Assembly (NCBI GenBank): GCA_026709625.1
Contig: JAPOSR010000059.1
Span: forward strand, 1-64,000
Reading direction: 5' to 3'
DNA length: 64,000 nucleotides
Source: Chloroflexota bacterium
GTDB taxonomy: Bacteria > Chloroflexota > Anaerolineae > Aggregatilineales > Phototrophicaceae
Below the pieces are notes generated by a model that did not search any database, was not told where the DNA came from, and saw nothing but the letters and a program-made list of their open reading frames with translations. Below are positions 59,353 through 63,002 of the stretch, one piece after another (the stretch's first letter is position 1; every line of letters begins with the position of its first letter). The translations under genes and the position numbers were made by a program.

Positions 59353-59367
59353 TGATACCGTGTATCA
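59353..59367 (+). promoter_or_regulatory. Candidate metal-regulator operator (TGATAC-N3-GTATCA)
   Basis: TGATACCGTGTATCA is a perfect 6-3-6 inverted repeat at the likely transcription start. A second, overlapping palindrome TATCAT-N6-ATGATA spans 59340-59357. Position in a zinc operon suggests a Zur/Fur-family or similar regulator, but the sequence is not a classic Zur box. Confidence 0.55.
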
Positions 59368-59383: not shown

Positions 59384-61333
59384 ATGAAAGTACGAATCAT
59401 CGCACTGGCGATGTTGGCGCTGCTTTTCGGCGTCAATGTCGGCGCTCAGTCCAACAAACCTGTCGTGATTGCGTCCCACAGCATATTGGCTGATGTGGCG
59501 CGCAATGTTGCCGGTGACCTCATCGAAGTCCGCACGCTCATCCCCTGGGGCAGCGACCCGCACCACTTCATCCCCACACCCAGCGACATGACCGCCGTCG
59601 CCGATGCCGATCTGGTGCTCATCAACGGCATTGGCTATGAAGAAACGTTGCTCGAAGCGATCGAAAATGCTGGCGCAGATGTCAACATCGTCGTCGCCTC
59701 TTCCTGCATCGATATTCGGCCCGCGGGCGCGTACGATTATCATGACGACCATGGACATGACGACCATGACGACCATGCGCACGAAGACGACCACGATGAC
59801 CACGCGCATGAAGACGACCACGATGACCACGCGCATGAAGACGACCACGATGACCACGCGCACGAAGACGACCACGATGACCACGCGCATGAAGACGACC
59901 ACGATGACCACGCGCATGAAGACGACCACGATGACCACGCGCATGAAGACGACCACGATGACCATGCCCACGGCGATATGGAAAGCCATTGCGATGAGCA
60001 TGACGCGGAATTCGCCTCGCTGTTCGCGGCTCACCATGACATGGACGAGGAAGACGATCATGAACATGGCGAAGACGGCCATGGGCACGAAGAAGACACA
60101 GATTTAAGTCTGTTTTCCGGTGAATGGCTAAGCGTCTGGGCATTCCCCGAGTCCGATATTCAACCTGCCCATGAGGCGATTTTGGCGGCAACGCCAGAGT
60201 TGACGCAGGATCTGCTCAGCCAATACCTCGAGGCGGCGAACTACACGCCATTCAGCGAATTGACATTTAGCGAAGACAGCGTCGCGTTTGACGGAGTGGC
60301 TTGCGACTACGCATTCTCCGAACAGCCTGTACCGTCGTCTCTGGGCGAAGTCTCGCTATTTGAAACAGCGGACGAAGCCTGCGCAGATATGCGCTTTCTG
60401 CTCTTGGGCGCGATTCATGGGACAGTAGAGGATGGCACCTACCACTTTCACCTGCGCATTGCCCCCAGCTATGGCGAAGTGGTCGATGAGCAGTCCCTGT
60501 CCTTCCCGTCGGCATGGCCGAGTTCGACTACGGCAGCCGACATCAATGCGCTCTTTTCGGGATTCGCTCGCCCGATCGGCATGCGCGTCGCCGCGACCTA
60601 TGGCGTAGAAATAGCCATGAGCGAAGAAGAGATGGCGGCGATGAGCGCCGAAGAAGACGACCATGCGCACGAGGAAGACGAGCATGGGCATGACGAGCAT
60701 GGGCATGACGACTCCGCCACGCTGGGTCGGCTGGAAGATATTGAATGCGCTGGGCATGATCACGGAGCTGACGGGCACGAACACGCCCATGAAGAAGGAT
60801 CCTGCGACCCGCATGTTTGGTTGGATCCACACAATGTGGTCTATTGGGTGATGACCATTCGCGACAGCTTCAGCGAGATCGACCCCGACAATGCCAGCGA
60901 ATATCACGAACTGGCGCTGGCGTATGCCATGGAGTTGGACTCGCTAGAAAGCGATTTCATCTGGCCCACGCTGGAAAACCTGCCTGAAGAAAAGCGGCTG
61001 CTGGTGACCGCCCACGATGCGCTGGGCTACCTGGCTGGCACATTTGGCTTTGAAATCGTCAGCACCGTCATCCCCGGCGTCAGCACCGTGGTCGAGCCGA
61101 GCGCGAGCGATGTCGCCGCGGTGATCGATGTCATCCGCGAGCGGGAACTGACCGCCATCTTTGGCGAGTCGACCACCAGCGACAGGATATTGCAGGTTAT
61201 CGCTGCCGAAACTGGCGTCGAAATCGCGCCGCTCTACACCGATTCGCTCGGAGATGTCGATGGGCCTGCCGGCGCCTACCTGGACTACATGCGCTACAAT
61301 TTCACGACTATCGTTGAAGCGCTGAGCGGCTGA
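59384..61333 (+). CDS. znuA: ZnuA-type zinc-binding protein with nested ZinT-like domain
   Basis: The 649-residue exported protein begins with a signal peptide (MKVRIIALAMLALLFGVNVGA). The first ZnuA lobe has WGSDPHHFIPTPSD (His60/61). A loop of eight DDHDDHAHE-like repeats fills about residues 126-197. From about 240 to 405 lies a ZinT-like domain: LSLFSGEWLSVWAFPESD, GVACDYAF and GTYHFHLRIA (His354/His356). A second His-rich stretch (about 423-470) leads to the second ZnuA lobe with CDPHVWLDPHN (His477), VTAHDALGYLAGTFGF, FGESTTSDR and YTDSLGD. The usual ZnuA is about 310 residues; the extra length is the insertion. AAGGAG precedes ATG 59384. It delivers Zn2+ to ZnuCB, which follow. Confidence 0.88.
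   Translation: MKVRIIALAMLALLFGVNVGAQSNKPVVIASHSILADVARNVAGDLIEVRTLIPWGSDPHHFIPTPSDMTAVADADLVLINGIGYEETLLEAIENAGADVNIVVASSCIDIRPAGAYDYHDDHGHDDHDDHAHEDDHDDHAHEDDHDDHAHEDDHDDHAHEDDHDDHAHEDDHDDHAHEDDHDDHAHEDDHDDHAHGDMESHCDEHDAEFASLFAAHHDMDEEDDHEHGEDGHGHEEDTDLSLFSGEWLSVWAFPESDIQPAHEAILAATPELTQDLLSQYLEAANYTPFSELTFSEDSVAFDGVACDYAFSEQPVPSSLGEVSLFETADEACADMRFLLLGAIHGTVEDGTYHFHLRIAPSYGEVVDEQSLSFPSAWPSSTTAADINALFSGFARPIGMRVAATYGVEIAMSEEEMAAMSAEEDDHAHEEDEHGHDEHGHDDSATLGRLEDIECAGHDHGADGHEHAHEEGSCDPHVWLDPHNVVYWVMTIRDSFSEIDPDNASEYHELALAYAMELDSLESDFIWPTLENLPEEKRLLVTAHDALGYLAGTFGFEIVSTVIPGVSTVVEPSASDVAAVIDVIRERELTAIFGESTTSDRILQVIAAETGVEIAPLYTDSLGDVDGPAGAYLDYMRYNFTTIVEALSG
59759..59974 (+). repeat. Eight tandem 27-bp repeats coding DDHDDHAHE
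   Basis: Eight 27-base units follow in frame, six of them identical in protein; the last ends in HG. They differ by a few third-position changes (CAC/CAT, GAC/GAT). A metal-binding loop of this kind is typical in ZnuA, but this regular tandem array suggests recent expansion by slippage. Confidence 0.9.
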
Positions 61334-61354: not shown

Positions 61355-62146
61355 ATGGCAGCAAAAAAGGGCGTGCAGGCGGCGCTGGTCGTCCATCAAC
61401 TGGGGACGGGCTATCCAGGCAACCGGCACGCTCTTGTCGACATCAGCTTCACAATCGAAGCGGGCCAGCGCGTCGCTGTCATCGGACCCAATGGCGCTGG
61501 CAAGAGTACGCTCATCAAAGCCATCGTCGGCTTGCTGCAGTTCAGCTCGGGCAGCATCTCGGTCTGTGGCGAAGACTGCTATAGCAGCCACAGCCTGGTT
61601 GGCTATGTGCCCCAGCAAAACGACATCGACTGGAGCTTTCCGGCTTCGGTCTATGATGTCGTGATGATGGGGCGCAGCCGGCATATCGGCTGGTTTCGGC
61701 TGCCGCGGCGCGCTGACCATCAAGCTGTCCGCGATATTCTGGAGCATTTGAGCCTGGGTCATCTGGCAAAGCGACAGATTAGCGAGCTCAGTGGCGGGCA
61801 GCGCCGGCGCGTCTTTATCGCTCGCGCCCTCGCGCAAGATTCCCGCGTGCTGCTGCTGGACGAGCCCTTTACTGGCGTCGACCAACATGCTGAAGGCGAG
61901 ATCAGCGAGGCGCTGGACATCATGACCAGGCAGGGCATCACCATCCTGATGGCGACGCACCACATCGAAAACGCCGCTCAGCGCTTTGACAAGATCCTCG
62001 TGCTGCGACAAGGCGAGACCGTGGCATTTGGCGCGCCTGACGACATACTGGATCCCCAGTTGCTGCGGCAGGCATTTGGCGCCAGCATTTCTGTGGTTGG
62101 CAAGGACCTGCTGATGCTGTCTCGCAAGCCAGAAGGACCTGCTTGA
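61355..62146 (+). CDS. znuC: Zinc ABC transporter ATP-binding protein
   Basis: The 263-residue ATPase has VIGPNGAGKSTLIKAI (Walker A), LSGGQRRRVFIARALAQ (signature), RVLLLDEPFTGVD (Walker B) and MATHHIENA (switch His). It has the VPQQNDIDWSFPASVYDVVMMGR segment seen in metal-uptake ABC proteins. It follows znuA after 21 bases and precedes the permease by one base, so it drives zinc import with them; manganese cannot be fully excluded. Confidence 0.92.
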   Translation: MAAKKGVQAALVVHQLGTGYPGNRHALVDISFTIEAGQRVAVIGPNGAGKSTLIKAIVGLLQFSSGSISVCGEDCYSSHSLVGYVPQQNDIDWSFPASVYDVVMMGRSRHIGWFRLPRRADHQAVRDILEHLSLGHLAKRQISELSGGQRRRVFIARALAQDSRVLLLDEPFTGVDQHAEGEISEALDIMTRQGITILMATHHIENAAQRFDKILVLRQGETVAFGAPDDILDPQLLRQAFGASISVVGKDLLMLSRKPEGPA

Positions 62147-62147
62147 T

Positions 62148-63002
62148 ATGGACCTGGCGGCTTTCCTGGCCGAGCCTTTGCAATACAGCTTTATCCAGCG
62201 GGGCATGCTGGCGCTGATCTTGGTCGGCGGCCTCAACGCGATTGTCGGCTGTTTTGTGATGGTGCGGAGCATGGCATTTTTGGGGGATGCGCTTGCGCAT
62301 TCTGTTCTGCCCGGCGTCGCCCTGTCCTATGCAGCCAGTGGCGGCAGCATCGGCAGCAATCTTTTTTTTGGCGGCTTGGGCGCAGGCATCTTCTCGGCGC
62401 TGGTCATCGCCTGGTTAACCCGCAAGCAAGAGCTGAAAGAAGACAGCGCCATCGCCATCGTCTTCGTCACCATGTTTGCGCTGGGCATCGCTATCATCAG
62501 CACGCAATCCAGCTACGCCATCGACTTGGCGCACATTCTCTTCGGCAGCATCAACGGCATCAGCCAGCAAGACCTGCTCATCATGGCTGCCATGACTGCC
62601 GGCGTGCTGGTCATCATTGGCTTATTTTACAAAGAGTTCCTCATCATCAGCTTCGACCTGAGCCTGGCCTACAGTTTGAAGCTGCCGGCTGAGGCGCTGC
62701 GCCTGCTGCTGTTGATATTGATCGCCGTCACCATCGTCGTCAGTTTGCAGGCTGTGGGCATCGCGCTGATGCTGGCGCTTCTGATTACGCCAGTGGCCAC
62801 GGCGCGGCTGCTAGTCAAGCGCATGCATCACATGCTGGGCATCGCCAGTCTATTGGGAATTGTCAGCGGCATTGTCGGCTTTTATGCGTCATATTACCTG
62901 GATATTCCGTCTGGCGCTTGCATCGTGCTTATGCTCAGCGCGCTTTTTGGGCTGGTGTTTGTGGCGCAGTCGGCTTTGAATCGGCTGGTGCCGCGAAGCT
63001 GA
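62148..63002 (+). CDS. znuB: Zinc ABC transporter permease
   Basis: The 284-residue permease has eight or nine membrane helices and the ABC-3 family pattern: MLALILVGGLNAIVGCFVMVRSMAFLGDALAHSVLPGVAL near the start and ITPVATARLLVKRMHHMLGIASLLGIVSGIVGFYASYYLDIPSGACIVLM near the end. GDALAHSVLPGVAL is typical of metal permeases. It is the last gene of the operon; rsfS is convergent 12 bases later. Confidence 0.92.
   Translation: MDLAAFLAEPLQYSFIQRGMLALILVGGLNAIVGCFVMVRSMAFLGDALAHSVLPGVALSYAASGGSIGSNLFFGGLGAGIFSALVIAWLTRKQELKEDSAIAIVFVTMFALGIAIISTQSSYAIDLAHILFGSINGISQQDLLIMAAMTAGVLVIIGLFYKEFLIISFDLSLAYSLKLPAEALRLLLLILIAVTIVVSLQAVGIALMLALLITPVATARLLVKRMHHMLGIASLLGIVSGIVGFYASYYLDIPSGACIVLMLSALFGLVFVAQSALNRLVPRS

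Follow-up and report, generated by a model that had tools for sequence, protein, structure and literature searches.

In Escherichia coli and Salmonella, the zinc substrate-binding protein (SBP) ZnuA and its partner ZinT interact; how ZinT helps ZnuA is unsettled, zinc transfer between the two has not been shown, and it has been suggested that the histidine loop of ZnuA reaches into the cleft of ZinT (PMC6689063). In the AztABCD system of Paracoccus denitrificans, the partner of the SBP AztC is AztD. Transfer of zinc from AztD to AztC requires the AztC loop and its three histidines, and a docking model places this loop inside the AztD pore (PMC6689063, PMC7463823). The loop seems important for chaperone interaction in both ZnuA/ZinT of S. 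enterica and AztC/AztD; ZinT and AztD share no structure (PMC7731109). AdcA, from Streptococcus pneumoniae and others, has a rigid helix that joins the two lobes of its SBP. It binds zinc through His63, His140, His204 and Glu279 in the SBP domain and through His452, His461 and His463 in the ZinT domain. Its His loop lies at the ZinT-domain interface, and the authors speculate that the loop carries zinc across (PMC7858048).

Is the C-terminal arrangement of AdcA the only way of joining SBP and ZinT functions? A protein encoded in the window, the stretch of 64,000 nucleotides analyzed here, shows that it is not. Like AdcA, this protein unites a zinc SBP, a His-rich loop, a ZinT fold and a three-histidine site in one chain. 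Unlike AdcA, whose ZinT domain is C-terminal to the SBP on an 11-residue linker, it carries ZinT inside the His-rich loop, flanked at each end by a His-rich linker, and does not show the AdcA-type layout. It contains the same two partners as ZnuA and stand-alone ZinT of E. coli and Salmonella, which are separate proteins there but form one chain here. As for AztABCD, AztC is the best NCBIfam SBP model, the neighboring ATPase is AztA-like and the permease AztB-like, and AztD is found nested in this loop in relatives of the window protein; in Paracoccus, by contrast, aztC and aztD are separate genes (P. alcaliphilus), and the window SBP falls below the AztC cut-off and nests ZinT, not AztD. Like the actinobacterial anchored-repeat SBP (TIGR03772, a 486-position model), it is a cluster A-I SBP. 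Its profile coordinates suggest that the TIGR03772 model is longer by about 200 positions at this slot, so the mere presence of an insertion here may not be new; no ZinT is reported for it. The nested layout had initially been put forward as one not known as described. The open-licence literature, in which we found no description of it, is consistent with this view: ZinT-SBP fusion appears there only C-terminally (AdcA), and nesting of AztD in AztC or of PCuAC in ZnuA was not found.

The SBP gene and its nested domain

By its profile matches, the window protein is a zinc-type cluster A-I SBP, ZnuA/AztC-like. Pfam PF01297 (ZnuA) matches it with E=7.7e-58 (196.5 bits, cut-off 29), and this match is split into two stretches with a large gap between them. 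The top NCBIfam model is AztC (NF040870, equivalog) at 227 bits, under its cut-off of 350, and manganese SBP models score near it. The SBP metal ligands align with AztC structures as three histidines (His60, His477, His544) and an aspartate, Asp620, which is probably the fourth ligand. An AztD-nested relative in genome G291 (L033:2995-5439) has a lipoprotein-like signal, LLAACTP, whereas the window SBP has no lipobox cysteine; anchoring of the two may differ.

Table 1. Features of the SBP operon in the window.
Feature	Coordinates	Strand	Remarks
Zur/Fur-type palindrome TGATAC-CGT-GTATCA (TGATACCGTGTATCA)	59353..59367	+	Perfect; just 5' of the ribosome-binding site
Zinc SBP with nested ZinT-like domain	59384..61333	+	649 aa, stop included; single open frame
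Signal peptide MKVRIIALAMLALLFGVNVGAQS	59384..59452	+	Residues about 1-23; no lipobox cysteine; read from sequence
SBP N-lobe, first part, with zinc ligand His60	59459..59719	+	Residues 26-112; aligned to AztC 5w56; DPHHF position
First His/Asp-rich stretch	59738..60100	+	About residues 119-239; holds 27-bp tandem repeat
Nested ZinT-like domain	60101..60565	+	Residues 240-394; ligands His345, His354, His356
Helical tail of insert	60566..60646	+	Residues 395-421; kept in most relatives; outside ZinT match
Second His/Asp/Glu-rich stretch	60647..60805	+	Residues 422-474; includes LGRLEDIxC motif
Rest of SBP: His477, inter-lobe helix, C-lobe with His544 and Asp620	60806..61330	+	Residues 475-649
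ABC transporter ATPase, AztA/MntA-like	61355..62146	+	Same operon
ABC-3 family permease, AztB-like	62148..63002	+	Same operon; PF00950 E=4.1e-71

The first-pass annotation placed the insert between the two lobes of a ZnuA-type protein. The insert instead lies inside the N-lobe His-rich loop, since it precedes the DPHVW motif (His477); the inter-lobe helix is found further along the chain. SBP sequence resumes after the insert (residues 240-421). The ZinT-like domain is missing from two same-genus orthologues, L086 of G010 and L094 of G016 (alignment identity to the window protein 57% and 61%), in which the flanks are unchanged and a long His/Asp loop and the motif LGRxxDIxC are present; LGRLEDIxC is common to the window protein and orthologues that lack the insert. 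The claim that two His/Asp-rich stretches flank the insert was borne out, with 35 histidines counted in the first and 11 in the second. The tandem repeat (59741-59972) comprises 7-9 copies with about 93-96% match and encodes HDDHAHEDD units. Orthologues differ widely in the length of this repeat, which fits a sequence that expands and contracts, and the His/Asp repeats vary freely in both length and composition. One relative, L003 (518 aa), has a short loop with linkers that could be ordered.

Taken alone, the window insert scores 16.5 bits against Pfam ZinT (PF09223), under the gathering cut-off of 27. We therefore name it ZinT-like; by that score it is not a Pfam ZinT member. As a single sequence it found no match in the PDB with phmmer. 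These two results are what would speak for an assembly artefact or a chance resemblance behind the nested reading, which we consider extremely improbable: the same SBP-ZinT-SBP order recurs in one open frame in independent genomes of several genera, on which ground an assembly artefact was rejected, and profile and fold matches are strong. Related inserts pass the PF09223 cut-off in G442 (70 bits), G447 (51) and G462 (34.5). A profile from the alignment of seven such inserts, two of them from G442, retrieved Salmonella ZinT from the PDB with E=4.5e-16 and the ZinT domain of AdcA with E=1.1e-12. The ZinT profile match stops at position 159-161 of 189, around residue 394 of the window protein.

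An AlphaFold2 model of the window insert, built with the seven-insert alignment, reached pLDDT 87.3 and pTM 0.77; a first model from three sequences only was poor (pLDDT 64). With the later model, the nine best Foldseek matches are all ZinT (E about 1e-7 to 1e-6). VIA-align superimposes about 146 residues on ZinT structures (Z 13.4-14.3, rmsd 2.5-2.8), the next unrelated row having a Z of 6.8, and the highest structural match is the AdcA ZinT domain (Z 14.3, rmsd 2.6, 145 residues). As modelled, the window insert has the ZinT fold. The histidines H345/H354/H356 are spaced by 9 and 11 residues, identical to His452/461/463 of AdcA. Profile, fold, ligand spacing and relatives agree with the first-pass annotation on a nested ZinT-like segment as well as on a layout distinct from the C-terminal ZinT of AdcA.

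Distribution and other domains in the same slot

The nested ZinT-like insert is present in 6 of the 98 genomes of the family and in 6 of the 154 of the order; in an even sample of 400 genomes of the phylum, it was found only in the window's own genome. Most genomes of the same genus are without it, and the orthologues read there have the loop without the domain. A search with PF09223 alone matched none of 298 sampled genomes, own genome included, because nested copies are divergent or lie outside the sample; a custom profile was needed. Plasmid searches yielded no other nested ZinT, and two weak class-level matches, in G181 and G217, were rejected as chance resemblances within an argJ-like gene. 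A tree of the SBP part places nested ZinT in two separate host clades. The closest hosts to the window SBP (G016, G028 and G005; support 0.94) lack it, as does G010, the sister of G018 (support 0.98). On these placements, nested ZinT has been gained and lost, or transferred, more than once.

A complete His triad with AdcA spacing is found in the window insert, in G035, in G447 and in the first G442 copy. The triad is incomplete or otherwise spaced in 3 of the 7 inserts: the first histidine is missing in G018, Asn replaces the second in the second G442 copy, and the G462 insert has one His plus HFH at a spacing shorter than that of the ZinT triad. With its first histidine absent in G018 and Asn in the second G442 copy, the ZinT site is not strictly conserved.

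Which other domains occupy this slot? G442 holds two ZinT-like domains in tandem. The slot of G447 contains ZinT followed by AztD (NF038015, 233.7 bits; PDB AztD, 3.7e-42). G462 has the same succession of ZinT and AztD, with the frame broken ahead of the second part of the SBP; its nested SBP (L017:1983-4722) is spread over two overlapping frames, by frameshift or sequencing error. AztD stands alone in the slot in G477, G464 and G461 and in the two members of genus g152 that were read in detail (G291 and G241). Five further g152 genomes have AztD matches in frames of similar length, and in G258 AztD is followed by the second part of the SBP, cut by the contig edge. The nested AztD domains that were read keep motifs matching the published zinc-site residues (PMC6689063), some with His for Asp, and score under the strict NCBIfam cut-off of 400. 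In G410 (L091:1000-2589), the His-loop slot holds PCuAC (101 bits). In two relatives (G410, and G258 at L092:121-1506) the copper chaperone PCuAC takes different places: it is nested in the loop of one and follows the SBP at the C-terminus of the other. An apparent joint AztD-AztC match in Deinococcus ficus, from the plasmid searches, covered an annotated 852-bp SBP gene and a stretch without a listed gene, and was hence not counted as a fusion.

Proposed capture and hand-over of zinc

We consider it fairly probable that the operon imports zinc under starvation and that its SBP has a zinc-recruiting domain docked to it covalently, in which nested ZinT captures zinc and the His-rich linkers hand it over. 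When zinc is scarce, the nested domain together with the His/Asp repeats would bind it on the outer side of the membrane. The nested domain would be held above the SBP cleft by the His-rich linkers, along which zinc would move on to His60/His477/His544/Asp620, and the SBP would then deliver it to the permease. In favor of this reading are the ZinT homology by profile and fold, the AdcA-like spacing of the insert histidines, the conserved SBP ligands, the operon with ATPase and permease, and the Zur-type palindrome, which recurs at the FUR-family/COG0523 locus and at promoters of orthologues. The role given to the linkers is modelled on the separate ZnuA-ZinT and AztC-AztD pairs, in which the loop is thought to be a docking or transfer element. 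Capture and hand-over is the preferred mechanism because ZinT, AztD and PCuAC are all inserted in the His loop, a recurrence that, as read from the sequences, is independent evolutionary support for a loop mechanism. The case for hand-over is strengthened by relatives in which this slot is taken by AztD, an established zinc donor to AztC, and relatives with other metal-chaperone domains in this loop suggest a built-in zinc relay. Counting against hand-over, the known pairs themselves offer no demonstration of direct passage of zinc from ZinT to ZnuA (PMC6689063), the ZinT site is imperfect in G018 and in the second G442 copy, and most genomes of the same genus do without the domain.

Could the nested domain and the His repeats simply act as a zinc sponge or buffer, raising local zinc or guarding against excess, with no directed passage of zinc to the SBP site? 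This is the main rival to hand-over, and we regard it as unlikely, if worth serious attention. The very long His/Asp repeats, free in length and composition among orthologues, would suit a sponge, as would the imperfect His sites of some inserts and the small effects of loop deletions in published systems (PMC7731109). A sponge, however, would have no need of a folded domain whose specific site is conserved, AztD in the same place in relatives is a proven donor to AztC, and the palindrome upstream of the gene predicts expression under zinc starvation, not excess.

For the capture and hand-over mechanism, a ZinT domain inside a loop thought to carry zinc offers a ready system of fixed stoichiometry for intramolecular zinc transfer, and relatives with the proven donor AztD in the same place add to its value. 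If this mechanism is true, these proteins would be evolution's own record of ZinT and AztD both acting via the His loop.

Operon and putative zinc control

The ATPase gene and then the permease gene lie directly downstream of the SBP gene. Perfect copies of TGATACNNNGTATCA number only four in the genome: the window site plus a group of three at C54. Those three lie ahead of a FUR-family gene (PF01475, 54 bits) that has a COG0523/CobW gene further downstream. One-mismatch copies of the palindrome occur upstream of the orthologues in G018, G005, G028, G016 and G026, a closeness reached in at most 0.1% of shuffled sequences; upstream of those in G010, G033 and G019 the palindrome was not found. 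Zinc control of the window operon via the putative Zur-type operator is likely.

This bears on whether the SBP might carry manganese, iron or copper, with the ZinT-like domain serving that metal or having lost metal binding. The manganese SBP models scoring near AztC, the alignment of the fourth SBP ligand with Asp, and PCuAC in the slot of one relative would fit such a role. We nonetheless judge it very unlikely: SBPs of the zinc type are marked by a His-rich loop (PMC7463823), zinc is the metal of both ZinT and AztD, and the palindrome also occurs at a FUR-family gene with a COG0523 GTPase after it, a pairing typical of zinc starvation.

The C54 locus (L081:2926-7759) has on one side a divergent periplasmic binding protein (PF01497) with ABC genes and on the other the FUR-family regulator and the COG0523/CobW GTPase, with four operator-like palindromes between the two sides; it is probably a zinc-response locus. 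In G442, G447, G462 and G035, the DNA upstream of the nested SBP gene, read by eye, seems to code for the C-terminal end of a FUR-type protein. The apparent FUR-type frame of G447 (L015:3438-6365) runs into the nested SBP gene with no stop, which would be either a fusion or a lost stop.

Apart from the window operon, its genome has a second, ordinary ZnuA-type system on C25. Read by eye, the permease ORF of this zinc/manganese-type operon (L020:231-2756) has a Cys-rich insertion and a C-terminal segment that resembles a DtxR-like winged helix.
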